From positions 124,001 to 188,000 of the forward strand of contig JAPPFM010000053.1 in NCBI GenBank assembly GCA_028821605.1: 64,000 nucleotides of DNA. Reading direction: 5' to 3'. This DNA is from Candidatus Poribacteria bacterium. Its GTDB lineage: Bacteria; Poribacteria; WGA-4E; WGA-3G. Positions 1,101 through 31,955 of this stretch are shown piece by piece. Positions within the stretch are counted from its first letter, which is position 1. Every line of letters begins with the position of its first letter. The translations under genes were made by a program, and so were the position numbers. Under the pieces are notes generated by a model. The model made no database searches. It worked only from the letters and a program-made list of their open reading frames with translations, and was not told the DNA's origin.

Positions 1101-3371
1101 ATGATGAAGTATACCGATATGCTGGAAAGTATTAATGATATTCTTTGCCTAGAACTTCTCTCTAATTCTCATTCAATTGCTGTTTCGCCTGATGGCAATC
1201 AGCTTGCTGTTGTTGTTCAGAATTATCGTAGACATCAAGCAAGGAGGATATCTGAACGTTTCCTACCATCAGGTTTGAACAAGGGGTTTGAAGGAAGTGA
1301 AATTTGGCTTGCTACTGTTAGGAACGGAGAATCACGAAATCTCACACCGAATTGGGGGACAAGTTATAGACCTGCATGGTCACCGGATGGAGAGAAACTG
1401 GCTTTTTATTCGGATAAGCATGGGAAGGCACAGTTATGGGTATGGGAAAGGGGCGAAAATGAGCCGCGACTCGCGAGTGAGGGCACAATTCGACCATTTT
1501 CGCAGAGCGGTCCACCGCCGCTCTGGACACCTGATGGAACGCGTATCGTTGTCAAGCTGCAACCGGAACCAGAGGTGATCGAAGAAACACTGCCAGACAA
1601 AGAAGCGGTATCTGTTACAGTCTTTGCGAGTTGTGCTCCTGAGGAAACACCTGTAAACAAAGAAAATCCCGAAGGTGAATCTGAACTATGGTGGCCCTCG
1701 TGGGGACATTGGTTTCGCTCAGATGTAGGGGTGATAACAGTCGCAACAGGTGAAGTCCAGACGTTAGCGCAAGCATTCCATCCATTTGGTCTTCGTCTTT
1801 CACCTGATGGGACAACTGTGGGGGTTGTAAACTTTCGGGGATTTGAGAAATTAGAAAACGCTCAAGGAATATACGAGTTTTATCTTTTTCCGCTTGATGG
1901 CACTCCGCCAAAATTGATTGCGGATTCACTTAAGTTCCATGGAATTTTGTTTAGTTGGTCTCCAGATGGTCGCTATATTGCTTATACAACAGAGGGGTAC
2001 CCCCTCTCAACCGAAGCATCAAAATCGGAACTTTTTCTGATTTCGACAACTGACGGTAGCCAAGTAAACCTCACACAGCGTACCGATATTGAACTGGCAA
2101 ACAGTTCACACCCACCTTTATGGAGCACAGATAGCCAACACCTGTTCTGTGTTGCCCGAGGGCATCTTTGGCGCATTGAGGTCGCCAGTCGAGCCATTGA
2201 AAAACTAACAGATGGATTTGACCGACGTGTTGTTAGGCTTGTTCGACAAGCTGAAGCAGATACCGTCTGGTCACCAGACAATACTAAGTCGGTGTCCGTT
2301 CAGACATTAAGAGGCCCGGAACATGGGTTTCATCGCATCAACCTGAAAACTCGGAAAATCACAAGGTTGGTTGAAGAAACGCGGGTGTATAATAGGAAAG
2401 GAAATATGGATGTTGCACCTCAGACGGGTGATATTTTCTATAGTGTTGAAGATATAAGCCATCCGTCCGAGATGTGGATAGCGGATGCTGACTTTCAAAA
2501 CCCAAGACAACTTACCCGCCTAAATTCCGACATTGAAAAGGCATCTCTCAGTACTTCTCAGAGTATTACTTGGCAGACTCCCGTTGGAAAACAGTTAAGG
2601 GGCGCATTGTTGTTCCCGCCAGACTATGTTGAAGGACAGAGTTACCCGTTAATCACACAAGTTTATGGGGGTTCTTTTCTATCACACAGCGGCAATGATT
2701 TCGGAACAGATGGGACGGGGCATAATTTTCTGCTCACGAAGCAAGGTTACGTTGTCTTTCTCCCAGATATGCCTATGGAAACCAACGCACCGATTCAGGA
2801 ATTAACCGAGTGTGTTCTCTCTGGTATAGATGCAGTAGTTGACATGGGAATTGCTGATGCCAAACGTTTAGGAGTGATGGGGCACAGTTATGGAGGGTAC
2901 TGTGTCAATGCATTGATTACGCAAACGTCTCGGTTTGCGGCTGCTGTCAGTAGTGCACCGATTAGCGATTTGATTAGTTTCTATGGATATTTAACAGGAG
3001 GCGGAGATAGCCCTTGGATCACTTGGGCGGAGAGGAGTCAGGGCAAAATGGGGGGTTCCCTTTGGGAATTCCGAGAACGATATATTGAAAACTCCCCCAT
3101 CTTTTTCCTTGACAAGGTGGAAACACCCTTATTATTGATTGTTGGCGCATTAGACGACTGTGCTGTCCCACAGGCAGGGGAAATGTTCTCCGGTTTACGT
3201 AGACTCGGAAAACAGGCAGTTTTAGCACGATATGAGGATGAAGGGCATACACCGCAACGCGGACGTTATCCGAATGTGGTTGACTATTGGCATCGGGTAC
3301 TTACTTGGTTTGGTGAGCATTTGTTGGAATCTCCAGAAGGCGATCCTGAGTTGCAAAGGGAGCAGCAATGA
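1101..3371 (+). CDS. S9-family prolyl oligopeptidase-like serine peptidase
   Basis: About 756 residues from ATG 1101 (a second ATG follows at 1104, preceded by AAGGATGGA). The frame extends up to a TTG at 1038, but the extra residues are basic and unlike the family, so I prefer the ATG. The N-terminal half is a beta-propeller with repeated PD40-type blades (SPDGNQLAV, SPDGEKLAF, SPDGRYIAY, TPDGTRIVV). The C-terminal alpha/beta-hydrolase domain carries the triad: Ser596 in GVMGHSYGGY, Asp686 in GALDDCAVP and His716 in EDEGHTP. It likely cleaves short peptides (dipeptidyl/acylaminoacyl peptidase type). There is no signal peptide, so a cytoplasmic location is expected. The stop codon lies exactly where a duplicated gene fragment on the other strand begins. 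Confidence 0.9.
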   Translation: MMKYTDMLESINDILCLELLSNSHSIAVSPDGNQLAVVVQNYRRHQARRISERFLPSGLNKGFEGSEIWLATVRNGESRNLTPNWGTSYRPAWSPDGEKLAFYSDKHGKAQLWVWERGENEPRLASEGTIRPFSQSGPPPLWTPDGTRIVVKLQPEPEVIEETLPDKEAVSVTVFASCAPEETPVNKENPEGESELWWPSWGHWFRSDVGVITVATGEVQTLAQAFHPFGLRLSPDGTTVGVVNFRGFEKLENAQGIYEFYLFPLDGTPPKLIADSLKFHGILFSWSPDGRYIAYTTEGYPLSTEASKSELFLISTTDGSQVNLTQRTDIELANSSHPPLWSTDSQHLFCVARGHLWRIEVASRAIEKLTDGFDRRVVRLVRQAEADTVWSPDNTKSVSVQTLRGPEHGFHRINLKTRKITRLVEETRVYNRKGNMDVAPQTGDIFYSVEDISHPSEMWIADADFQNPRQLTRLNSDIEKASLSTSQSITWQTPVGKQLRGALLFPPDYVEGQSYPLITQVYGGSFLSHSGNDFGTDGTGHNFLLTKQGYVVFLPDMPMETNAPIQELTECVLSGIDAVVDMGIADAKRLGVMGHSYGGYCVNALITQTSRFAAAVSSAPISDLISFYGYLTGGGDSPWITWAERSQGKMGGSLWEFRERYIENSPIFFLDKVETPLLLIVGALDDCAVPQAGEMFSGLRRLGKQAVLARYEDEGHTPQRGRYPNVVDYWHRVLTWFGEHLLESPEGDPELQREQQ

Positions 3372-3422
3372 ACCGAGTATGCCGCCTACCATTCCCATAT
3401 TGCTAATCCAAGCTTCATTCAT
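3369..3422 (-). pseudogene. truncated second copy of the adjacent small membrane-protein gene
   Basis: On the minus strand, ATG 3422 opens MNEAWISNMGMVGGILGS, nearly the same as the first 18 residues of the gene at 3415-3819 (MNEPWISNPGMVGGILGS). It also has a matching AGGAGG ribosome site, and its ATG overlaps the stop of the full copy (ATGAATGA). Similarity ends at 3369, precisely at the stop of the S9 peptidase, after which the frame simply runs antisense through that gene. This is the 5' end of a former tandem duplicate cut by a rearrangement. A short readthrough product is possible but unlikely to be functional. Confidence 0.75.
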
Positions 3423-3819
3423 CAGAAACCTCCTTCTCTTCTGTGTTGTTCTTGAGGCTCCCCTCGTTTCCTCCGAGCGTTAAATCTTCAGACATGGATT
3501 TTCTAAGTTCAGCCTCTCTTGCTCTTTTGAGAATTACCCAAAAACCACCACCAAAACCACTTGTGCCGAGGAGTCCAACGAGACCGAATCCGTACCATAT
3601 ACCGTAAGGTTGTCCTGACAGATATGCAACGATACCGACGACGAGCGAAATAAACGAGAGGACAAACGCGAGGGTGTTAACTCCTAAAGTAAGTTTTTTT
3701 GCTTTTCCTCTTGGCACGAACACACTTGCCAATGTTCCAATGACTCCACCGAGAATGCCTATTGTTGAACCCAATATACCGCCTACCATTCCAGGGTTGC
3801 TAATCCAAGGTTCATTCAT
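3415..3819 (-). CDS. small multi-pass membrane protein, unknown function
   Basis: 134 residues. Three hydrophobic segments are visible: roughly residues 12-35 (Gly-rich, GILGSTIGILGGVIGTLASV), 47-68 and 74-95, followed by a charged cytoplasmic tail (KRAREAELRKS... ending EEKEVSDE). Strong AGGAGG ribosome site. It follows the 45-residue frame at 3833-3970 by a few bases and runs into the truncated copy of itself, so a single leftward operon is likely. I do not recognise the family. Confidence 0.7.
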   Translation of the reverse strand: MNEPWISNPGMVGGILGSTIGILGGVIGTLASVFVPRGKAKKLTLGVNTLAFVLSFISLVVGIVAYLSGQPYGIWYGFGLVGLLGTSGFGGGFWVILKRAREAELRKSMSEDLTLGGNEGSLKNNTEEKEVSDE

Positions 3820-3832
3820 TAGAGTTTCCTCC

Positions 3833-3970
3833 TCATTTTGATTCCTCGTAAGCCTTGATAAGTGCTTTTGCTGCGGTTTGCGTCAGGGTCCCTTCCGCCA
3901 CCATCAACCGAATTTTCAGTAAAAACGGATTTTCCGAATTAGTTATTACGTGGGCGAAGATGGATCTCAT
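3833..3970 (-). CDS. small 45-residue ORF, unknown
   Basis: A minus-strand frame MRSIFAHVITNSENPFLL... ending KALIKAYEESK, TGA 3833-3835. It starts inside the 3' end of the protease gene (32-base overlap) and stops just before the AGGAGG of the membrane-protein gene, so it fills what would otherwise be a gap. The composition (LKIRLMVAEGTLTQTAAKALIKAYEE) looks like a real amphipathic helical protein, but there is no clear ribosome site and no homolog is known to me. It could be the C-terminal remnant of a longer gene. Confidence 0.45.
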   Translation of the reverse strand: MRSIFAHVITNSENPFLLKIRLMVAEGTLTQTAAKALIKAYEESK

Positions 3971-4805
3971 CTTGCGTGAAATCGATAAAGACTGAATACT
4001 TGGAAAAGAAATTATGTCCTAAAAAACCGTCTCGCTTGGGATATTCATAGTCCACAAGCATGAAATCCATCGGAGCGAGTGGATAATCACAAGGGGTTCG
4101 GAACTGATTTGAACTAAATTTTCCCAATACTTCAACGTCGCTTGGATCGGGTTCAAGGGTTTCGTTTTGCTGTAGCAACTTACCGAGTTTCGACGCAGAA
4201 CGGATCATCCCGTAGGAATGCCTCTCCTCGTCAACAGCTACAACTCCCGTATCTAAGCAGAAAATGAAGGTTTCCTCATAGTCTTTGAGTTTAACCGGTA
4301 AGCTCAGTGGTGGAACTAACTGAACTTTCGTCCAACCTTGTGATTTTAGGTAATCTGGGTAGAAACCTTTCCGATACAGACCAAATTTTCTATTTGGATA
4401 ATCAATCAGGACGTTGAATGGATTTAATAACACCAGACCGATGAGCCCTCCCAAATCATCGTATCTTGAGAAGAATTCGTAACCTGGCAATTGGTCCAAA
4501 ACGAGAGATCCGATTTCGACTTTGGGTAGAAGGTACTGGCGTGACTCATATTTCTGCCCTTTGAAATCGTGGTTTTCTTTGGTGCCACCTGTGTATATGA
4601 CATCTAATCTGTTCAAAACAGATGGTGGTAGACTCACAGTGCCATACCCGTGTCCAGTATCAATAAAAAGCCTGAGTTTCACTTTATTAACAAACACGTC
4701 AATGTGGGCATCAGAGGGGGAATTGTCTTCGCTTGTGAAATAGATCGGAACTTCTGTGGATTCAAATTCGCTGGGCACGTTAAAGGAAAATGTTGAACTT
4801 GGCAT
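3939..4805 (-). CDS. retropepsin-like aspartyl protease with two DTG motifs
   Basis: 288 residues, no signal peptide. Two hydrophobic-hydrophobic-DTG motifs mark an internally duplicated aspartic-protease fold: FIDTGHG (Asp49) and FCLDTGV (Asp185). Each half carries later strands of the family (LGGLIGLVLLNPFNVLIDYPNRKFGLY; RDGFLGHNFFSKYSVFIDF), the second being the usual 'G.lG..fl..f...iDf' end. Having both halves in one chain means it could act as a monomer, as pepsin does. It lies in a leftward cluster of small unknown genes; substrates are unknown. Confidence 0.75.
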   Translation of the reverse strand: MPSSTFSFNVPSEFESTEVPIYFTSEDNSPSDAHIDVFVNKVKLRLFIDTGHGYGTVSLPPSVLNRLDVIYTGGTKENHDFKGQKYESRQYLLPKVEIGSLVLDQLPGYEFFSRYDDLGGLIGLVLLNPFNVLIDYPNRKFGLYRKGFYPDYLKSQGWTKVQLVPPLSLPVKLKDYEETFIFCLDTGVVAVDEERHSYGMIRSASKLGKLLQQNETLEPDPSDVEVLGKFSSNQFRTPCDYPLAPMDFMLVDYEYPKRDGFLGHNFFSKYSVFIDFTQDEIHLRPRNN

Positions 4806-4997
4806 AGCGTGACTTCAATATAAAAATTGATCTGTCATGTAAGTTGGTTTGAGAGGTTTGACCGGTGAGTTAGACATCAGTTGTGTGTCAGGACAATTAT
4901 GCCTTGCACTCGCGCAGCAGGAATACGCTGTTCCCGGCGTTGATGCTGCTGAAAAACCGATTACATAAAAACAGTGGATTTCTGAGAAATAGGAGTT

Positions 4998-5390
4998 CTA
5001 TAAAGATTCATCGAACTGCTTGAAGAGCCGAGTCCCGTCTTTGGGAGAAATAATCGTAGAGTCCTGATCTTTTGAAAAAACAGATTCAAACTCTTCTTCT
5101 GCTAACAAATTGTCAATTGCTTTACAGATAGTTTGTTCCGTAAGTCTTTGAACAATCAGCATATCAGATGTCCAAAAATACAAGCCATTAGCACCTTCTC
5201 CAGTCTTTTCGTAGTCTTTCATCAAAGTGTCAATATTCTGAAGAGTAAAAAAGACTGCGGAAAAACTTTCACCGTTCGGAAAAGTGACTTGAATATCAAC
5301 ATTATCATTATCGGGATCCAGAGGTGTGATTCCGCAATAGATCGTTAATTTGTAATTATCGCGCTGAAGAGTTACGTAAGGTTTATCCAT
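4998..5390 (-). CDS. hypothetical protein, 130 residues
   Basis: Begins MDKPYVTLQRDNYKLTIYCG. Predominantly beta-like in its first half (DNVDIQVTFPNGESFSAVFFTLQNIDTLM), then a helix (TICKAIDNLLAEEEFESVF). No signal peptide, membrane segment or recognised motif. Its start overlaps the end of the coiled-coil gene by 19 bases in another frame, so the pair is probably translationally coupled. I do not recognise it. Confidence 0.6.
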   Translation of the reverse strand: MDKPYVTLQRDNYKLTIYCGITPLDPDNDNVDIQVTFPNGESFSAVFFTLQNIDTLMKDYEKTGEGANGLYFWTSDMLIVQRLTEQTICKAIDNLLAEEEFESVFSKDQDSTIISPKDGTRLFKQFDESL

Positions 5391-5722
5391 TTTGAGAGGT
5401 TTTGACCAGTGAGACGGTAATACTTATCGGCAAGTAGTGCTCGTTTTGATTGGAGTTGTGTCAAATATGCGCGTGCATCGGTTAGCAGTTGCTTGTGCTC
5501 AGTAACAATATCTTGCAATTGCGAAACGGTTATCTCAAGTTCCGCTTTCTCTTCCTGCAACCGTTGACTCTCTTCCTTCGCGGGTTTTAACGCTTCCGCT
5601 TCCTCGGCATCTAACTCAGCAAAGATGGCTGACAGTTCTGCTTGCTCTTGTTCGGTCAAATTCCCTTCTGCCTCGCGGACTCGCAGCTGCTCTAATCTAT
5701 GTTGTCTGTTTGTATGTTTCAT
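5372..5722 (-). CDS. small coiled-coil protein
   Basis: 116 residues, highly charged and heptad-like from about residue 15 to 95 (EEAEALKPAKEESQRLQ, ELEITVSQLQDIVTEHK), with the N-terminal pattern REAEGNLTEQEQAEL seen in many small bacterial helical proteins. AGGAG lies eight bases before the ATG. First gene of the leftward cluster that continues with the 130-residue protein, the protease and the membrane protein. Function unknown. Confidence 0.65.
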   Translation of the reverse strand: MKHTNRQHRLEQLRVREAEGNLTEQEQAELSAIFAELDAEEAEALKPAKEESQRLQEEKAELEITVSQLQDIVTEHKQLLTDARAYLTQLQSKRALLADKYYRLTGQNLSKWINLT

Positions 5723-5791
5723 TATTGCGTTCTCCTACAGTTTGGTGCCTTAGTTCTCCGTTAGGTTTTCAATGTTTTATATCTTTACTTT

Positions 5792-7684
5792 TCAATCGGC
5801 AGCAACACTTTCCAACGGCGGTAGTTCCGGGTAATTCCCGCGGGCGTTTCGCCACGCGATGACACCTTCGGCGATCATCCAAATCTGTAAGGCTTCGACG
5901 ACAACACCGAATCCGAAGAGCAAATACTTGCCTTCAAAGAGCCAACCTGTCTGAGGATTGAACATCTGGTGTAGCATTGCCCACGCAGGCATGATGAGCA
6001 TGACGATCATGGGAAGGGCTGCAAACCAGATCGGTTTATTCCGGCGGACGAGGTAGAAGACGATGACCATAAACGCTAATCCTGCTAAAAGTTGATTTGT
6101 CGCGCCAAAGAGGGGCCAGAGCGTCAAACCACCACTGCCGGGACCGCTCGGTCCTTGTAGCAGGGCAACTGCAGCGGCGAGGACTAATGCAAGCGCAGTT
6201 GCTATATAACGGTTCATCAACGGCTTGAAGTTAACCGTTTGTGCCAGTTCATAGATAACATACCGTTGGAGTCGAGTGGCTGTGTCTAACGTTGTAGCAG
6301 CGAAACTCGCAACGAGGACCGCCATAATCGCAATCCCCATCTTAAGCGGGATACCGAGGGAGGCGAGAAAATTCCCACCCCCATCAACAAACGCGCTTAC
6401 CTTTGCCTTGAGTCCGTGGCTTACCCAACCACTGACGACCGTGGTAGTTCCATCAGCATTCGTTTCCGTTTTGATAGCATAACGCGCTTTCCAAGCATCA
6501 TGATTCGTAACAGGGACTGCACTATCCGCTTTGACAATAGGTTCAAATGCGTAGTTTGCGCCGGTGCCAGTCCGATTGAAAATTCCCATACCGATGCCAG
6601 CACAACAAGCGAGAATAACGATAACGGCAAGTCCACCTTCGAGTAGCATTGCCCCGTATCCTACATATTGCGCGTCGCTCTCAGAGGCAACCTGTTTACT
6701 GGAGGTGCCAGAACTCACCATACAGTGGAAGCCGCTGACGGCACCACACGCAATCGTGATGAAGAGGAAGGGCCAAATCGGTGGGGCATCGGGTGGAATG
6801 TCTGAGGCAACAGCAGGAGCAGATGCCGTTAAATCTGCTCTGCCTGTCAAGCCTGCTACTGCAAGTCCAAGCACCAGTAGAAGCAGCGCTAATACGAGTT
6901 CGTGGCTATTAATGAAGTCCCGGGGTTGCAGAAGTGTCCAGACGGGAAGGACTGAGGCAATAAAGCAATAGACGAAAAGCACCAGCGTCCAAATTACCAC
7001 GACGTTCAGATAGGTTTGTCCAAGGAGTGGAATACCGAGCCATTGACTTAAATCGATCGGTAAAATGTATGCCCCAACTGCCATCCCTATGTACATGATA
7101 CCAAGTGCGATAATGGAGGGGATGAGAATGTTGCCACCCCTGCGATAGATCCAGATACCGATCGCGATAGCGAGTGGGATTTCTATCCAGACCGATAGCA
7201 CGGACTCTGGATAATAGGAGAAAATAAGAGCAATGACCAAGCCGAAGATAGCAAGGACAATCGTCAAGCCCATGAAGAGAACGAAAAGGAAGAGAAATTT
7301 TGCGCGGGGTCCTATCATTCGCCCCGCAACTTCGCCAACACTCTGCCCTCGGTTGCGTAGGGAGACAACAAGCGCGCCAAAGTCGTGAACAGCACCTATG
7401 AAAACAGACCCAAGAACGACCCACAGCAACGCCGGTAACCATCCCCAGAAAACGGCAATCGCGGGTCCAACGATGGGACCTGTGCCAGCGATGCTTGTGA
7501 AGTGATGCCCGAAGATGACTTCCTTTTTGGTGGGGACGTAATCGACATCATCTCTCAGTTCTTGACTCGGAACCGTTGCTTGGGCATCTAATCCGAAAAT
7601 CTTTCTCGCTAACCATTTACCGTACGTATGGTAGGCGACGATAAAACCGATAAAACTCAAAATCGCAATAATAAGCGTATTCAT
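5792..7684 (-). CDS. cstA: carbon starvation protein CstA family transporter
   Basis: 630 residues with many membrane spans. The N-terminus is diagnostic: DYVPTKKEVIFGHHFTSI then AGTGPIVGPAIAVFWGW and VHDFGALVVSLRNRGQS. Also typical are GFHCMVSSGTSSKQ (around residue 320) and the C-terminal LWPLFGATNQLLAGLAF. Family members import peptides or pyruvate across the inner membrane. The charged 'NADGTTTVV' loop near residue 405 lies between membrane segments. It is preceded by repeat-rich intergenic DNA and a xylose isomerase gene on the same strand. The ribosome site is weak (AAGGT about 11 bases before the ATG). Confidence 0.95.
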   Translation of the reverse strand: MNTLIIAILSFIGFIVAYHTYGKWLARKIFGLDAQATVPSQELRDDVDYVPTKKEVIFGHHFTSIAGTGPIVGPAIAVFWGWLPALLWVVLGSVFIGAVHDFGALVVSLRNRGQSVGEVAGRMIGPRAKFLFLFVLFMGLTIVLAIFGLVIALIFSYYPESVLSVWIEIPLAIAIGIWIYRRGGNILIPSIIALGIMYIGMAVGAYILPIDLSQWLGIPLLGQTYLNVVVIWTLVLFVYCFIASVLPVWTLLQPRDFINSHELVLALLLLVLGLAVAGLTGRADLTASAPAVASDIPPDAPPIWPFLFITIACGAVSGFHCMVSSGTSSKQVASESDAQYVGYGAMLLEGGLAVIVILACCAGIGMGIFNRTGTGANYAFEPIVKADSAVPVTNHDAWKARYAIKTETNADGTTTVVSGWVSHGLKAKVSAFVDGGGNFLASLGIPLKMGIAIMAVLVASFAATTLDTATRLQRYVIYELAQTVNFKPLMNRYIATALALVLAAAVALLQGPSGPGSGGLTLWPLFGATNQLLAGLAFMVIVFYLVRRNKPIWFAALPMIVMLIMPAWAMLHQMFNPQTGWLFEGKYLLFGFGVVVEALQIWMIAEGVIAWRNARGNYPELPPLESVAAD

Positions 7685-7734
7685 TTTTTAATTTTACCTT
7701 GCGGTTAAACAACGCGCGTTTCGACTTTGACGTA

Positions 7735-7812
7735 CGTTGTGTATATCCGCCCTCCGCTACGCTTACGGGCTATAGGTTTCGTTTTTCAATTAGGACTTAC
7801 GTACGACCTCTT
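7735..7812. repeat. dispersed intergenic repeat pieces
   Basis: Two short motifs that recur in other gaps of this window: CCTCCGCTACGCTTACGGG (compare 17045-17065) and TAGGACTTACGTACG (7796-7810; compare 34376 and the ends of the element at 63795-63932). Probably the eroded remains of a mobile repeat between cstA and xylA. Confidence 0.5.
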
Positions 7813-7856
7813 AAAGTCCCCTGATAAGGGGATTTAGAGGGAATAAAAAATTAGTG

Positions 7857-9026
7857 TTACCTGACCCCTGTCAAAATTTCAAATGTGAGTTGGTCCAATT
7901 TCTCGTATCCGAGTCCTTTTTGTGCAAGGGTGTCCGGTTCAAAGTCTATCTTTCTCAGTTTCCCAACGCTCTCAGCGTTATAGTTTGCCATGAGTGCTTC
8001 AAGTTCAGGATCGCGTGCTTGCAGTTCCGCGAGAATCCCTTGAATTTCCGCATCTTCGTTGAAACGGCGTGCTTTTTCCTTCAAAATCAGGTAGCTCCGC
8101 ATGCACCCTGCAGCGAAGTCCCAGACCCCTTGTTCATCTTCAGTGCGATACGCGTGGGCATCAAAGTGGCGGCTGCCATCCCAGTTCATGTCCTCAAGGA
8201 ATTTAACGAGGAAGAACGCACCTTTGATGTTTTCGGAACCGAAGCGCAGGTCTTGGTCGAAACGACTCATCTTCTGGTCATTGAGGTCGATGTGGAAGAG
8301 TTTACCGGATTCATAAGCTTGTGCGACACCGTGGAGAAAGCTTAACCCTGCCATAGTTTCATGGGCGAATTCGGGATTAACGCCGACCATTTCCGGGTAA
8401 TCAAGCGTTTCGATAAAGTGAAGCATGTGCCCTGTCGTTGGTAGGTAGATGTCGCCACGGGGTTCGTTCGGCTTTGCCTCAAGCGCAAATCGGAGATCAT
8501 ACCCTTGGTCTTTGACGTAGTGCGTGAAATAATTCATCGCCTCTCGATTCCACTTGACGGTATCCGGTCCGTTTTTAGAGGCATCTACTTCTGCGCCTTC
8601 GCGTCCACCCCAAAAGACGTAAATGGTCGCACCTAATTCCACACCGAGGTCGATAGCGTTCAAGGTTTTCTGGATTGCAAACGCTCGGACCTTCGGGTCA
8701 TTAGAGGTAAACGCACCGTCTTTGAAGATTGGGTGGTAAAAAAGATTCGTTGTCGCCATTGGCACTTTCATGTCGTGATCGGCGAGTGCCTTTTTGAATT
8801 CGCTGACAATGTTATCGCGTTCAACGGCTGTGGCATCGAAAGGAACAAGGTCGTTATCGTGTAAATTGACACCATAAGCGCCCAATTCGCTTAATTTTTG
8901 GACAGTGTATGTGGGTTTCAAGGGGGGCCTGACAACATCACCAAATGGGTCCCGTCCTGGGTTACCGACGGTCCACAATCCAAAGGTAAATTTATGTTCA
9001 GGCTTAGGCTGATACTGTTCTGACAT
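7857..9026 (-). CDS. xylA: xylose isomerase, class I (actinomycete-type)
   Basis: 389 residues, the short class I form. Interconverts D-xylose and D-xylulose. Active-site residues are all present: His56 and Asp59 (NLHDNDL), the WGGREG loop, Lys185 in [10 protein letters not shown], metal ligands Glu183, Glu219, His222 (NPEFAHE), Asp247 (FHIDLND), Asp257, Asp259 and Asp289 ([11 protein letters not shown]). These fall two residues after the well-studied Streptomyces numbering. AGGAG precedes the ATG. It has its own consensus promoter with a palindromic operator directly downstream, pointing to sugar-responsive control by an XylR/ROK-type repressor; no such regulator or xylulokinase is in the window. 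Confidence 0.97.
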
Positions 9027-9059
9027 TCATTCACTCCTATTGTTTATTAATTTTGGTAA

Positions 9060-9073
9060 GTTAGTAAACTAAC
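9060..9073 (-). promoter_or_regulatory. palindromic operator in front of xylA
   Basis: Perfect inverted repeat GTTAGT-AA-ACTAAC, beginning six bases after the -10 box and so lying over the expected transcription start. The TTAGTTT/AAACTAA character resembles XylR (ROK family) operators of Bacillus-type xylose operons. Binding factor is inferred only. Confidence 0.65.
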
Positions 9074-9079
9074 ATTTAG

Positions 9080-9108
9080 ATTATACCATATTTGGCATAT
9101 TTTTGCAA
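9080..9108 (-). promoter_or_regulatory. sigma70-type promoter of xylA
   Basis: Minus strand: TTGCAA (9103-9108), 17-base spacer, TATAAT (9080-9085). Near-consensus boxes at ideal spacing, about 50 bases upstream of the xylA ATG. The gap from here to 9266 shows no gene or clear signal. Confidence 0.8.
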
Positions 9109-9266
9109 ATTCCTACCAATGCCTTCCTTTGGTTTCAAAGAAGGTGCTCTATTGGATGTGTCGTTGAGGTGCAAAAATGCTGGTTGGAAGATTGTGCTAT
9201 CGTCCTCAGAAAGTCGCTCCTACGGTCTACAACCTTAGGACGGAGGGACGCTTGTGTAAGAGCACG

Positions 9267-10595
9267 TTATGCATCAAGGTGTGTGGAAATCTGTTTCAGA
9301 ACGCCTTCATAGTCTGCTTCCAATTCAACTGGGGCATTTAGGTAACGGGGTGGTGGTTCATCGGGTGTGAAGTTGTGATATGCGACCTTGAAATCCGGAA
9401 ACTTGAGTCCGTTGGCTGTAGAGATAACGATGACCCTATCATCGGGGAGAATCTGTTTGCGCTTGACCATTTTTATGAGTACCGCTAATGCTACTCCGGT
9501 ATGTGGGCAGTTAAATAACCCTGTTCTATCCGCTTTCGCCGCAGCGTCCGCTAATTCCGCTTCTGTTGCCTGATCAACAATCCCATCGAACCGTCGCAGG
9601 GTTCGGATAGCGCGGTGGATTGAGACCGGGTTGCCGATCTGGATTGCTGTGGCTTGTGTAGATTGTGCTGTGATGGCGTGGAACTCCGTGAAATCTGTTT
9701 GATAACTTCGGTAGAGCGGATTTGCGCGTTCGGCTTGGGCACAAGCGATCCGCGGCAGTTTATCAATGATACCGAGTTCCAGCATCATTAGAAAGCCGAG
9801 TCCGAGTGCTGAGACGTTGCCGAGGTTACCCCCCGGAATGATAATCCAATCGGGTACTTCCCAATCGAACTGTTGCACGATCTCGATGCTAATCGTTTTC
9901 TGCCCTTCAATTCGGATAGAATTAATGGAGTTCGCAAGATAGAAATCTTTTCGAGCAGAGAGTTTTTGGACGATTTCCATACAGCCATCGAAATCGGTCT
10001 CAAGCGAAAGGGTCAACGCACCATTGGCGATGGGTTGGATGAGCTGCTCACGCGTAACCTTCTCTTTCGGTAAGAGAATTATTGCTGGGATACCTGCCGC
10101 AGAGGCGTACGCTGCCAAAGAGGCAGAGGTATCACCAGTAGAGGCACACATAACAGCGCGGAGGTCTCCAGACTCAGCCATAATCTGTTTTACCATTGAG
10201 ACCAGAACGGTCATACCAAGGTCTTTAAAGGAGCCAGTATGACTGTTACCGCACTGCTTAATCCATAGGTCGTTCAAGCCGAGTTGGGCACCGAGACGTT
10301 CTGCCCAGAATAGGTTGGTGCCACCCTCATACATAGAGATAATGTTGCCATCATCAATGTTTGGACAGACAAGTTCTTTTTTTCCCCATACACCGCTACC
10401 GTAGGGATATTGTGTCCGCATGTAACGGTGCTCAAAAAGCGATTTCCAGTCCGCAGCACTACGCTGTTTCAGCACATCTATGTCGTGTTGAACTTCTAAA
10501 AGCCCATCGCAGTTTTTGCACCGGTAGATAACTTCAGTGAGCGGATACGTTTCATCACATCCTTCGCTGCACTGGAACCATGCATTGTAGTTCAT
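9267..10595 (-). CDS. thrC: threonine synthase with N-terminal zinc ribbon
   Basis: 442 residues. PLP-dependent conversion of O-phosphohomoserine to threonine. The first 30 residues hold a zinc-ribbon Cys set (Cys9, Cys13, Cys26, Cys29), as in many bacterial and archaeal threonine synthases. The PLP lysine is Lys124 in HTGSFKDLG; the phosphate-binding loop is [12 protein letters not shown]; the [13 protein letters not shown] segment is also typical. Its ATG overlaps the stop of scpB by one base (TAATG), making coupling with scpB likely. No other threonine genes are nearby. Confidence 0.95.
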
Positions 10596-26626: not shown

Positions 26627-27907
26627 TTATTTCTTCACTGCCTCTGCTACCAATTGTTCTAACGCGTCCCCTCTCGCTTGATGGGTAATTAATGTGCCAT
26701 CTTTATCAATGAGCCACGGTGCTGGGATCGCTCGAATACCATACTGTTGTGCGACGGGACTCTTCCATCCTTCGCCACTGAAAACCTGCCGCCAGGGAAT
26801 GTCGTTCTCTTTGAGGTAATCCCGTAGCCTATCTTCATCAGTGTCAAGACTAATACCGATAATGTCAAACCCTTCAGCTTTGTAGCTATTGTAAACCGCT
26901 TTGACATTTGGCATTTCCGCAATGCACGGACCGCACCAGACTGCCCAAAAATCGAGTAGGACGACTTTGCCGCGGTATTGCTCAAGCGAAATCGGGTTGC
27001 CGTCAAAGTCTGTCGCTGAAAAGTCAGGCACAGTTTTACCAATTAACGCCAGGGCCGGATCAGCTTTTATACGGTATTTATTTGCCAGTTCGGTGTTACC
27101 TAATCTTTCATGAATCTCGGCAAGTTTTCTGAAAACACTACGGTTTTCTGGAGACTGTTCCTCAAGTTTCGTAAAAAGCTGCAGCATCTCTTCATCCCGA
27201 TGCATCAGTTCAAGCATATCACCAAGGACAAAGTTTCCTCGCATGTTGTCAGGTTCTAAGGTTTCTTTATAATGGTTGATAAGATTCTCGGCATCTTCCT
27301 CTCGTTCAACTTGAATGTAAAGGCGGACAAGCGCAGGGTAATAAATAAGCTTTGCACTATCAGGATGCTGTTGAATTCCAGCAGCCAGGGTAGCAATGGT
27401 TTCTTCAACGCTTTCGTATATCTCTTCGGGGTTGTATTCCCATAAACTGGATGACCGGTAAACTTTTGACGAGAAACTCAGGTTTAGAACCTCAAAATCA
27501 TCGTTTTCATGATGGCGACAACGCACGAGCGGCATGGCATCGCCATATACCTTACGTTGTTCAGTTTTCCACTCTCTATAGCTGGGGTAAAGTTCGTAAC
27601 TATAACTCACGGGCATTTCTGGATCTGTGCTCTGCTTAAAAATCGGTTTGCCGTTCTCTTTATCTGCTGGACAGATTAACGCATTTCCATCTGCCAAGTG
27701 TTTCGGATGCAGATCTGAAAGCCAGACTGGAAAATCACCATATTCTTTCTCATAAGTGTCAATCGCCTTGCCGATAACGAGCAAGTTTTGCGTGCACATC
27801 TCAATATTTTTTTCATGCTGTTCAGCCGATTCTGGTGTCGCTACGTCTGCGTGAGCGAAGCTAATCAGCAGATTCAATACGGTTGCTGCGATCACAATAA
27901 CTTTCAT
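26627..27907 (-). CDS. exported TlpA/ResA-type thioredoxin with pseudopilin-like and helical-repeat N-terminal regions
   Basis: 426 residues. Signal peptide to about residue 20. Residues 38-100 resemble the body of GspG-like pseudopilins (LVIGKAIDTYEKEYGDFP ... LICPADKENG). Residues 160-285 are helical and TPR-like. The C-terminal thioredoxin domain starts at VPDFSATDFDGNPISLEQY and has active-site Cys325 and Cys328 in FWAVWCGPC and a cis-Pro loop IRAIPAPWLIDKDG. Likely a periplasmic disulfide reductase. A decayed tandem copy sits upstream at 28073-28393. Confidence 0.85.
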   Translation of the reverse strand: MKVIVIAATVLNLLISFAHADVATPESAEQHEKNIEMCTQNLLVIGKAIDTYEKEYGDFPVWLSDLHPKHLADGNALICPADKENGKPIFKQSTDPEMPVSYSYELYPSYREWKTEQRKVYGDAMPLVRCRHHENDDFEVLNLSFSSKVYRSSSLWEYNPEEIYESVEETIATLAAGIQQHPDSAKLIYYPALVRLYIQVEREEDAENLINHYKETLEPDNMRGNFVLGDMLELMHRDEEMLQLFTKLEEQSPENRSVFRKLAEIHERLGNTELANKYRIKADPALALIGKTVPDFSATDFDGNPISLEQYRGKVVLLDFWAVWCGPCIAEMPNVKAVYNSYKAEGFDIIGISLDTDEDRLRDYLKENDIPWRQVFSGEGWKSPVAQQYGIRAIPAPWLIDKDGTLITHQARGDALEQLVAEAVKK

Positions 27908-28436: not shown

Positions 28437-29216
28437 ATGCTGGGCGCGATTATAGGCGACATCGCCGGTTCCATCTACGAGGGAGATCCAATCAAAACCA
28501 AGGATTTTCCTTTCTTCGGTGACTATTGCTGTTTCACGGATGATTCGGTGTGCACTGTCGCCGTTACGGATATCCTGCTGCACGACCTTCCGCCAGCAGA
28601 GACGATGCAGCAGTGGTGTCGTCATTACCCAGGACGCGGCTACGGTGAAAACTTTGGTATGTGGATTTATACTGATCCGCCTGAACCGTATAACAGTTAC
28701 GGCAACGGCGCAGCGATGCGCGTCTCACCAGCAGCGTTCCTGAACCGCGATAATCTGGATGCTGCACTCCTTGCCTCCGACAAGGTAACCGAGATTACCC
28801 ACAATCACCGTGAAGGCATGAAAGGCGCGCGGGCAACAACACACGCCATCTGGCTTGCATTTCAAGGCGAGAGTCCAACAAGCATTCGTGAGGTTATCGC
28901 CTCCGAATACGGCTACGACCTCACCAAGACTGTGGACGAAATCCGTCCATCCTACTTTTTCGACATAACCTGCCAAGGCACTGTTCCGCAGGCGATAACG
29001 TGCGCGCTGGAATCCGTGAGTTATGAGGACGCGGTGCGTAACGCCATCTCCCTCGGTGGCGATGCCGACACACTTGCTGCCATCGCTGGTCCCATCGCCG
29101 AAGCGTTGCACGGCATTCCTGATGAGTTCAAAGAGCGGACAGAAAGTGTCTACCTCACAGATGCTCCGGACATGCTTGACATAATGCAGGAAATGTATCG
29201 AATTTTAGATAAGTGA
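28437..29216 (+). CDS. ADP-ribosylglycohydrolase, catalytic-type
   Basis: 259 residues, GAGGAG before the ATG. Removes ADP-ribose from proteins or small molecules with two Mg ions. Both metal sites are intact: GDIAGS (Asp8), FTDDSVCT (Thr34, Asp35, Asp36) and SLGGDADTLAAIAG (Asp209, Asp211, Thr212); substrate loop GNGAAMRV and HNHREGMKGA are conserved as in DraG/ARH-like enzymes. Cytoplasmic. It is followed 90 bases later by a paralog, and the gap between them is itself similar to the C-terminal extension of that paralog. Confidence 0.92.
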   Translation: MLGAIIGDIAGSIYEGDPIKTKDFPFFGDYCCFTDDSVCTVAVTDILLHDLPPAETMQQWCRHYPGRGYGENFGMWIYTDPPEPYNSYGNGAAMRVSPAAFLNRDNLDAALLASDKVTEITHNHREGMKGARATTHAIWLAFQGESPTSIREVIASEYGYDLTKTVDEIRPSYFFDITCQGTVPQAITCALESVSYEDAVRNAISLGGDADTLAAIAGPIAEALHGIPDEFKERTESVYLTDAPDMLDIMQEMYRILDK

Positions 29217-29305
29217 TGTAGACAAGGATGTTTATGTCGTGAAGACGTTCCAAATAATATGCCAAGTTATGATCTGAATAACTCTACTTACATACAGGAG
29301 CAAAT

Positions 29306-30445
29306 ATGTTAGGTGCAATTATAGGCAACATTGTAGGTTCCATTTATCACAAGGAAGGAAACCGAATTAAAACCAAAGAATTTATTTTTTTCGGTGATTC
29401 TTGTCATTTCAGAATTGATTCGGTGTGCACTGCTGCAGTCGCTGATATTTTGCTGAATGGACGTCAACCGGCGACGACAATGCAGGAATGGTGCCGTCGG
29501 CACCGAGAACGCAGCGGTAGTAGAAAATTTAAAAGATGGATTGATACTGATTCACCTAAACCGTACAAGAGTTCCGGAAATGGAGCAGCAATGCGCGTTT
29601 CCCCCGCAGCATTCCTGAACCGAGGAGACCTAGACGCTGCGCTGTCCGCATCTGACAAGGTTACTGCAATCACCCATAATCACCCAGAAGGCATGAAAGG
29701 GGCACGCGCAACAACACATGCTATCTGGCTCGCATATCAAGATGAAAATGCCGAAGATATCCGCGAGGTGGTAGTCACTGAATACGGCTATGATTTAACT
29801 AAGACAGTTGATGAGATTCGACCTGGATATTTTTTCGATGGGACATGCAAAGGCACGGTGCCTCAAGCGATAACATGTGCCTTGGAATCAGAGAATTTTG
29901 AAGATGCGATACGTAATGCGGTCTCTTTGGGGGGAGATTCCGACACACTTGCTTCAATTGCCGGTCCTATTGCCGAGGCACTGCACGGTATTCCTGATAC
30001 TATCAAACAACAGGCAGAAAGTCGCTACCTCACCAAAGCTTCAGACATCCTTGAAGTGATGCAGAATATGTATCGAATTTTTGATGTGCAGGACGACAGG
30101 AGGCATATTCGTCATGGTAGTCGTTCCATAAACTGTCCAAATTGTGATCCAGAGTGGAGATTAGTTGGTATTTCTCATAGATTTGCTCATCGTTATGGCT
30201 ATGGTCATGTTGATAACGAGTTTGCTATTTCCCGAAAGTCTATGAAGTATAGAATTGTGGAACCTGATCTGCACAGAAGGGGTTGGATACGAATGGTTGA
30301 GATTAATGGCACCAATCGTACCTTTCGAGAAATAGGTTATGCTTCTGAACCTCTTGATCGATATTGGGAGTATCATCAGCTTAGTTGTGGTTGTAAGACT
30401 ATTGTTCTTTCCGACTTAAGAGAAATTCCAAACATGCGATATTGA
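29306..30445 (+). CDS. ADP-ribosylglycohydrolase paralog with altered metal site and Cys-rich C-terminal extension
   Basis: 379 residues. Residues 1-258 are clearly paralogous to the preceding gene, but metal ligands are changed: GDIAGS is GNIVGS (Asp to Asn at 8) and FTDDS is FRIDS (Thr-Asp to Arg-Ile at 36-37), while GNGAAMRV and SLGGDSDTLASIAG remain. Catalysis is therefore doubtful though ADP-ribose binding may persist. Residues 260-379 are absent from the first copy: CPNC (277-280) and CGC (361-363) could form a zinc ribbon around HRFAHRYGYGHVDNEF. Possible role: ADP-ribose reader or inactive partner. GAG-rich ribosome site CAGGAG. Confidence 0.8.
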   Translation: MLGAIIGNIVGSIYHKEGNRIKTKEFIFFGDSCHFRIDSVCTAAVADILLNGRQPATTMQEWCRRHRERSGSRKFKRWIDTDSPKPYKSSGNGAAMRVSPAAFLNRGDLDAALSASDKVTAITHNHPEGMKGARATTHAIWLAYQDENAEDIREVVVTEYGYDLTKTVDEIRPGYFFDGTCKGTVPQAITCALESENFEDAIRNAVSLGGDSDTLASIAGPIAEALHGIPDTIKQQAESRYLTKASDILEVMQNMYRIFDVQDDRRHIRHGSRSINCPNCDPEWRLVGISHRFAHRYGYGHVDNEFAISRKSMKYRIVEPDLHRRGWIRMVEINGTNRTFREIGYASEPLDRYWEYHQLSCGCKTIVLSDLREIPNMRY

Positions 30446-30548
30446 ATACAATATTGGTGCTGTCACAACGAAAATCTACGAAATCAAACGAGTAGACTCT
30501 GATTATTTTGCCGAAGGTTCCGAATAAGATAGAACGTCCCAATATACG

Positions 30549-30596: not shown

Positions 30597-31778
30597 TCAA
30601 ACCACTTCCATCCAAACCCCAGGTACAAATCCGGGATACTCTCCCTCACTGAACGCTGGATAGTAGACACTCTCTCCATCAAAATCGTGAACCCTCTCTC
30701 CGCCGCTTTCGTTCGGGATATGTACCCTGCACGTATAATCCGTCTGATTGAACAACTGCTGCGGTGTCGGTGTGGATTCCTCAACGCGATATTCTGCTAA
30801 TGCTGCTTCATCAATGTCAACACCGAGTCCTGGCGACTCCGGGACCTGAATCTTTCCGTCAACGACATCAAGCCGTGTTTCAAGCAGATCCGATTCCCAT
30901 AATTCATGGCAGGTAATCGCTGGCAATTCGGCTTGCGATAAGACTGCACCGAGATGCACGGAATATGCCGTTGTAATACCCGTGCCGACCATCTGGAGCC
31001 AGTAGGGTTGCTCAAACGAGGCACAGAGCGCGTTTGTCCGCCGTAACGAGTTCACGCCACCGCCGACAACAAACCCGCCACAACAGCGCGCATGCAGACA
31101 GGATTCGTTGAAATGCTCAACAATCCGTTTCTCAACAACCTCTTGCAGTCTCGCTGCACCCTCTACATCCGTGCCAAGGTAGTATGGACTCTCATAAATT
31201 GCAACATTCGGGTGTTTGTCTAACTGTTGTAAGACAGGTATGGCGTTATCCGCAGTCCGCAGGAATCCGTTGAAGTCTATGTCGAGCCGATAGTCCGCTG
31301 GAACGGCATCGCCGACAGCGTCTACCTGTGCGAAGATGTCGCGCCAGGGACGCGCTTTGAGTTTCGCGGATGTGTAACCCCGTTTCACCGACTCTTGGAC
31401 TTCCGCAACCCAATCCTCTGGCGGCATATCGATATCCCACCACGAAATAGGACATCTCTCCCGAACCTTAGGTCCGATGAGTTGATAGACGGGGACATCA
31501 ACGGATTTGCCAATCGCGTCAAAAAGGGACATCTGGATGCCGAATCCGACGCTGTCATTGTTCATACAGGCAAATGCATTCTGTCCGATCACTTGTTCGA
31601 TGTTTGCCGATTCGTTTGATAAATTTTCGCCGTATCCGACGACACCGTTGCTGAGTTCGACGCGGTAGACGTAAACCCGTTCTCCGTGTGTCAGTGCGCG
31701 GTGCATGTGTCGGCTGACCCGTTCGTGATAAAATGGAACGTTCAACGGAATCGCTTCAAGATGTTTGATGCTAAGCAT
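30597..31778 (-). CDS. enolase-superfamily enzyme (mandelate racemase/muconate lactonizing type)
   Basis: About 393 residues from ATG 31778, which has a strong AGGAGGG; an in-frame ATG at 31805 is less likely. Capping domain first, then barrel motifs: KxK at Lys139-Lys141 (SAKLKARPW), Asp168 in LDIDFNG and Glu196 in YESPYY as metal ligands. Substrate is probably a sugar acid, abstracting an alpha-proton. The C-terminal region GERVHDFDGESVYYPAF is longer than in most relatives. No neighbouring dehydratase-pathway genes. Confidence 0.88.
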   Translation of the reverse strand: MLSIKHLEAIPLNVPFYHERVSRHMHRALTHGERVYVYRVELSNGVVGYGENLSNESANIEQVIGQNAFACMNNDSVGFGIQMSLFDAIGKSVDVPVYQLIGPKVRERCPISWWDIDMPPEDWVAEVQESVKRGYTSAKLKARPWRDIFAQVDAVGDAVPADYRLDIDFNGFLRTADNAIPVLQQLDKHPNVAIYESPYYLGTDVEGAARLQEVVEKRIVEHFNESCLHARCCGGFVVGGGVNSLRRTNALCASFEQPYWLQMVGTGITTAYSVHLGAVLSQAELPAITCHELWESDLLETRLDVVDGKIQVPESPGLGVDIDEAALAEYRVEESTPTPQQLFNQTDYTCRVHIPNESGGERVHDFDGESVYYPAFSEGEYPGFVPGVWMEVV

Positions 31779-31955
31779 GAGTTCCCTCCTCAAATTGATA
31801 AACAATCGTTCACGAGGTTTTCACTTTTTGCTGGTATGGTTTCGGAATTGTATCACATTTCCGAAATTGGCGGTGAAAATATTATGAAGATGTAGTGATT
31901 TCGTCTCTACCTACTGACAACTGAAAGCTGACAACCAGGAACTGCTTCATCGCGG

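Follow-up and report, generated by a model that had tools for sequence, protein, structure and literature searches.

Gene B of a Candidatus Poribacteria genome encodes a protein of the ADP-ribosylglycohydrolase (ARH) fold in which four active-site residues are replaced and to which a Cys-rich C-terminal tail is fused. Our preferred reading, to which we give slightly better than an even chance, is that B is a conserved bacterial pseudoenzyme, most likely binding ADP-ribose, an ADP-ribosylated target, or an ADP-ribose-derived signal without cleaving it. Put simply, a few sponge-symbiont bacteria appear to carry a conserved dead version of an ARH, fused to a Cys-rich domain, that may recognize ADP-ribose.

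Genes A and B and the B family

The window, the whole stretch of DNA analyzed here, comprises 64,000 nucleotides (contig C53, positions 124001 to 188000) of a 6.0-Mb assembly. Two ARH genes, A and B, lie in it on the same strand, separated by 89 bases (Table 1). The first-pass annotation had placed both open reading frames correctly and read their motifs accurately. A has GDIAGS, TDDS, and GGDADT; B has GNIVGS, RIDS, and GGDSDT, together with 120 extra residues that include CPNC and CGC. Both proteins match PF03747 well above the cut-off of 26.2 bits (A, 115.3 bits, E = 5.6e-33; B, 106.4 bits, E = 2.8e-30), and the genome of the window holds one more PF03747 gene, on contig C59. Against the NCBIfam equivalogs for DraG and Tri1 (TIGR02662 and NF041672), the A and B proteins scored 38 to 50 bits, compared with cut-offs of 337 and 490, and the PADLOC models gave no match to A, B, or the tail at E values up to 1. 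An AF2 model of B (mean pLDDT of 80) matched structures of ARH3, DraG, Tri1, and MJ1187, with PDB entries 1t5j and 6dre among the structures matched and a best E value of 6.6e-10; identity between ARH3 and the B model is about 20%.

Table 1. Positions of genes, domains, and active-site and tail residues at the A/B locus
Feature	Positions	Strand	Comment
Gene A: ADP-ribosylglycohydrolase (PF03747), two-metal site intact	28437..29216	+	259 aa; locus common to other genomes of the genus
Gene B: putative ARH-fold pseudoenzyme with C-terminal Cys-rich tail	29306..30445	+	379 aa
B ARH domain, residues 1-258	29306..30079	+	PF03747 over residues 1-229; AF2 structure matches
B Asn8 = ARH3 Asp34 (GD to GN)	29327..29329	+	Asn in 4/4 B; Asp in 73/73 fully covered non-B
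B His15 = ARH3 Glu41, Glu flap	29348..29350	+	His or Tyr in B copies; profile alignment, PMC8319183
B Arg36-Ile37 = ARH3 Thr76-Asp77, MgA ligands lost	29411..29416	+	R/K-I in B copies
B Asp211-Ser-Asp213-Thr214 = ARH3 Asp314, Asp316, Thr317	29936..29947	+	MgB site kept
B tail domain, 105 aa	30128..30442	+	Below cut-off for all curated families; relatives found in the B clade only
Tail CPNC, Cys277 and Cys280 (residues 277-280)	30134..30145	+	Invariant
Tail CxC (CGC, residues 361-363), Cys361 and Cys363	30386..30394	+	Both Cys invariant
Mrr-type restriction gene remnant: last 28 codons and stop	30441..30527	+	Overlaps B stop in another frame
Mandelate racemase/muconate lactonizing enzyme-like gene	30597..31805	-	Right border of the A locus

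Among 40 genomes, including its own, full-length B with its tail was found in three others (G018, G006, and G013), at 70 to 71% identity to the window copy; these are Candidatus Poribacteria MAGs of the same genus, and B is thus known from four MAGs of one genus. A profile of the tail, run over 84 genomes of the phylum, recovered the same four B genes only. All four copies are open reading frames of 374 to 381 codons, and since four MAGs contain this frame together with its tail, we judged an assembly artefact unlikely. A maximum-likelihood tree built from 31 ARH domains groups the four B sequences in one clade, with support of 100/98, and does not pair B with its neighbor A as sisters. The idea that B is a recent tandem copy of A was rejected, since A is nearest to other A genes (82 to 90% identity) and B is nearest to other Bs. 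Across the six B pairs, Nei-Gojobori dN/dS was 0.10 to 0.25 for the ARH domain and 0.18 to 0.38 for the tail, values that are approximate for the several pairs with dS > 1 and that indicate purifying selection on both parts.

Tandem pairs of tail-less ARH genes were also seen in two other genomes (L028/L115, G038 C28:32313-33960; L084/L111, G052 C92:6590-8206). Both members of each pair retain the full metal site, and we take this to mean that genes of this family have been duplicated with their catalytic residues intact.

Altered active site and Cys-rich tail of B

ARH3 holds one magnesium ion, MgA, through T76, D77, D78, and D316, and a second, MgB, through D314, D316, and T317 (PMC8141533). 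Residues of B were equated with those of ARH3 through a profile-based alignment of the family with ARH3 structures, and the ARH3 numbering was taken from chain offsets and the residue names in PMC8141533. The homologue set had 84 rows, 4 B and 80 non-B. Ten sites were read in 75 loci, which represent 76 of the 80 non-B rows (27 + 48 loci, with two G056 rows in one locus); 73 loci were readable at every site, 2 were incomplete but consistent wherever they could be read, and 4 short fragment rows were left out. Every B copy is altered at four sites: D34 to N, E41 to H or Y, T76 to R or K, and D77 to I. The 73 fully covered non-B homologues, which are tail-less, have D, E, T, and D at these sites without exception, and none carries any of the B changes; the pattern is far beyond chance. 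D78 (Asp38 in B), D314, D316, and T317 are kept in all 77 sequences, that is, the 4 B and the 73 fully covered non-B, and the Thr-His motif is retained in every B copy. The Tyr of the SYGNG loop is S, S, H, and Y across the four copies and is thus lost in three.

Judged by what an active two-metal site needs, A has T76, D77, and D78 of MgA and the E41 flap, whereas all four B copies have R/K, I, D, and H/Y at these positions; the MgB ligands Asp314, Asp316, and Thr317 are present in all four. The two altered metal motifs reported by the first-pass annotation need separating: in ARH3, the first two residues of TDD, Thr and Asp, bind Mg directly, but the Asp of GD lies outside the direct Mg ligands tabulated in PMC8141533. 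The change of the SIYE Glu (ARH3 Glu41) to His or Tyr is a fourth one that it had not listed. It had also described the substrate loop and the distal metal motif as kept, which holds for the latter in all four copies and only in part for the loop, given the variable SYGNG Tyr.

Loss of catalytic residues, taken alone, would fit a decaying gene copy. The same four sites are changed (E41 to H or Y and T76 to R or K among them) and the four tail Cys kept in all four diverged genomes, with open frames and with dN/dS far under 1 for ARH domain and tail alike; decay is refuted by these data and has become barely credible. The description of B as an apparent pseudoenzyme paralog has held up, in the sense of a conserved and probably noncleaving relative.

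The changed sites have been explored one by one in ARH3. Activity is severely reduced in the D34G, E41A, T76R, D77N, and D78N mutants (PMC8319183), and Arg is the residue found at the T76 position in three of the four B copies. The D77A mutant loses MgA and is inactive, yet binds ADP-ribose 23-fold more tightly (KD of 0.06 versus 1.42 μM), whereas D314A, which loses MgB, binds it 44-fold more weakly (PMC8141533). E41A still binds ligand and has been used for trapping and crystallizing uncleaved substrates (PMC8319183). Because single mutants of ARH3 are impaired at the same sites and D77A binds more tightly, B is probably a noncleaving ADP-ribose binder, and the simplest reading of its site would be that it traps ADP-ribose instead of cutting it free. 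The comparison with D77A has limits, as that mutant was made in human ARH3, whose identity to the B model is about 20%, and carries a single change set against four in B. Loss of the SYGNG Tyr in three of the copies counts against binding, although Tyr149Leu is tolerated in ARH3 (PMC8319183).

Two other readings of the altered site have to be weighed. Purifying selection over the whole ARH domain and the retention of most pocket residues would suit an enzyme that is still active, using one metal or a metal-free mechanism assisted by the Arg/Lys, perhaps on another ADP-ribose linkage; we think this very unlikely, since each changed position is individually near-lethal for ARH3 activity (PMC8319183) and single metal-ligand mutants abolish the activity of ARH1 and ARH3 (PMC6309922). 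More serious, though in our judgment still unlikely, is that B has lost ADP-ribose binding altogether and that its surface or tail serves a scaffolding or regulatory role, as might be the case for the vertebrate ADPRHL1. With R or K in place of T76, a bulky charged side chain enters the metal site; it might take up more than the MgA hole, or obstruct the pocket rather than fill that hole. The adenine-side Tyr varies, and ADPRHL1 offers a precedent for a pseudoenzyme of the same fold; an unused pocket, however, would not be expected to retain all MgB ligands and the Thr-His motif in four of four B copies.

The tail contains a CxxC...CxC arrangement in which all four Cys are invariant in the four copies, along with His, Trp, and Arg residues. 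The zinc ribbon suggested by the first-pass annotation is a candidate assignment, and zinc binding by the tail is plausible. A match to zf-HYPF (E = 0.007) fell below the cut-off. The tail is modeled with low confidence by AF2 (pLDDT of 59), and a fold search with it gave no significant match, the best being an AP2 tandem repeat at E = 0.34. A PDB sequence search returned no significant match, PHROGs and NCBIfam held no tail family above cut-off, and viral contigs, plasmids, and phages yielded no relative. In its own genome, searched at E values up to 10, the tail gave one chance match (E = 0.94). A search of genome contigs returned the same three MAGs; it was seeded with a pattern, by which remote relatives could be missed. 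The tail has a pI of 6.0 to 9.0, and its charge gives no specific pointer to DNA binding.

Genomic loci of A and B

The A genes form a clade of ten members in the 31-domain tree, with support of 92/92, and a gene of the Mrr restriction type follows A in eight of the ten loci (one such gene was tested against Pfam and matches PF04471; the rest were recognized by tblastn or blastp). In the G005 locus, only a short ORF resembling the N-terminal part of Mrr follows A; in the window, B stands in place of the Mrr-type gene. The fetched flanks of 17 other tail-less loci contained no Mrr homologue. In the window, mrr homology resumes at position 30441, within the last codon of B. The Mrr proteins are mutually 43 to 88% identical and differ most in their N-terminal parts. 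Right of the slot, by comparison, four conserved genes are 81 to 99% identical to those of the window, and we conclude that the slot changes fast. Given the Mrr-type gene in eight of ten A-clade loci and the 28-codon remnant that survives here, B entered this locus by replacement: it replaced an Mrr-type restriction gene.

Two further features of the A loci were noted. The A-type ARH and Mrr genes together look like a small ARH-endonuclease cassette (window, 28437-30527; L044, L045, L047, L048, L050, L012, L013, and L023). A thioredoxin-like gene lies upstream of A, single in the window (26627-27907) but repeated in tandem, as at least two copies or fragments, in G006, G017, and G005 (L044:4771-8703, L047:10534-13133, and L049:2323-5113).

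The first-pass annotation had suggested that A and B could be an ADP-ribose reader/eraser pair, taken here to mean two genes dedicated to each other and forming a single unit. Their closeness on one strand in the window and the presence of A-type genes in three of the four B genomes fit this proposal, but the comparison of loci largely refutes it, and we now hold it to be highly improbable: B adjoins A in the window only, one genome of four; A is on a different contig from B in G006 and G013; no A-type match was found in G018, a 91% complete MAG; and B took the place of mrr.

Elsewhere, B lies in other surroundings. G018 and G013 share a locus, different from that of the window, in which B lies beside genes of Ssp phosphorothioation. 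By profile score, the neighbors of B in G018 are SspB, SspC, and SspD (PADLOC), GIY-YIG, and DndB; a TIR_2 gene and a Hypoth_Ymh gene flank B on its opposite side there. The neighboring genes in G013 match their G018 counterparts at 64 to 96% identity. A GIY-YIG gene lies between the SspB/C/D-like genes and B, together with one or two genes that are DndB-like (L042:1080-14427 in G018; L043 in G013). In G006, B is at the end of an 18.7-kb contig, which stops 175 bases upstream of it, beside WD40 genes; no defense genes were recognized by eye on this contig. The same contig (C4, L041) carries at 1324-9582 a metal-handling-like cluster, whose genes were named by eye as a CobW-type GTPase, a metal-binding lipoprotein-like gene, and a TonB-type receptor.

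SspB-type genes (PF13182) are present in 46 of the 84 genomes of the phylum, which makes the link between Ssp and B weak. Ssp as a fixed partner of B was rejected, since B is present in only 4 of the 84 and the window genome has B and no SspB. Among the four B genomes, searches gave no DarT, no ART, and no PARP over the cut-off (one sub-threshold PARP match in G013); the controls of the ART and PARP searches were also silent, which leaves the ART result uninformative and the search for a transferase partner a weak one. Macro domains and TIR genes are present in all four, too common to be counted as partners.

Proposed function and comparison with known systems

From the sequences, we infer how hydrolysis would have been lost and ADP-ribose retained, what the tail would do, and which role B would play. 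The MgA half of the site is dismantled by the change of Thr76 to Arg or Lys and of Asp77 to Ile, and the catalytic Glu flap is lost with Glu41 to His or Tyr, alongside Asp34 to Asn. The MgB half, which holds the terminal ribose (Asp314, Asp316, and Thr317), is kept together with Asp78 and the Thr-His motif. The Arg or Lys may substitute for the missing Mg charge. The tail probably binds zinc and would relay the binding event to a partner, to nucleic acid, or to an activity of its own.

B moves between loci, having been found in an Mrr-type slot and at a site beside Ssp genes, and so probably serves defense or another form of conflict. The link to defense is weak; on the evidence of its loci, B would most likely be a mobile ADP-ribose-reading accessory of defense-type loci. 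A bolder version, which we consider quite unlikely, makes B a mobile ADP-ribose-gated immune effector, in which a high-affinity ARH trap, lacking MgA and the Glu flap, senses phage ADP-ribosylation or ADP-ribose signals made by TIR proteins and the Cys4 tail serves as an effector or DNA-binding arm, replacing the endonuclease beside an active ARH eraser. The general prediction from B is that, in bacteria, an eraser has been turned into an ADP-ribose reader. If B does bind, it would represent a novel type of such reader, might be of use as a reagent, and would offer a lead to a new domain of conflict loci.

The comparisons below draw on PMC8141533, PMC9503650, PMC8319183, PMC6309922, and PMC7050489; in searches of the open-licence literature, we recognized no described bacterial ARH-fold pseudoenzyme. 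The vertebrate ADPRHL1 (ARH2) is alike in being an ARH-fold protein considered catalytically inactive. B, however, is bacterial, has a Cys-rich tail of its own, and lies in changing loci, and the likeness drawn here is one of fold and presumed inactivity. The natural changes of B fall on ARH3 sites at which mutations have been made to inactivate the enzyme or to trap it (E41A, D77A/N, T76R, and D34G). Relative to the D77A and E41A mutants (PDB 7l9h; 7akr, 7aks, and 7arw), B is changed at both sites and at T76 and D34 with the MgB ligands kept, but it is only about 20% identical to ARH3 by its model, combines four changes, and carries a tail.

The Ssp (SspBCD) phosphorothioation defense adjoins B, as SspB/C/D-like genes, in G018 and G013, whereas most genomes with SspB lack B and the window genome lacks SspB. 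The last comparison is with the ARG-centered conflict systems of PMC9503650, where it is predicted that transferase-less ARG-domain genes, sometimes linked to genes of the restriction endonuclease fold, counter phage ADP-ribosylation. The A loci are similar in that no transferase was found with A and that it is followed in eight of ten loci by an Mrr-type endonuclease with a variable N-terminal part. They differ from those systems in that no Nudix/WYL regulator, phosphatase, or chaperone gene was seen directly beside A, and in the window the slot is held by B. The A and Mrr genes would partly resemble the proposed ARG-domain antiphage arrangement, to which B in the slot would add an ADP-ribose-binding component.
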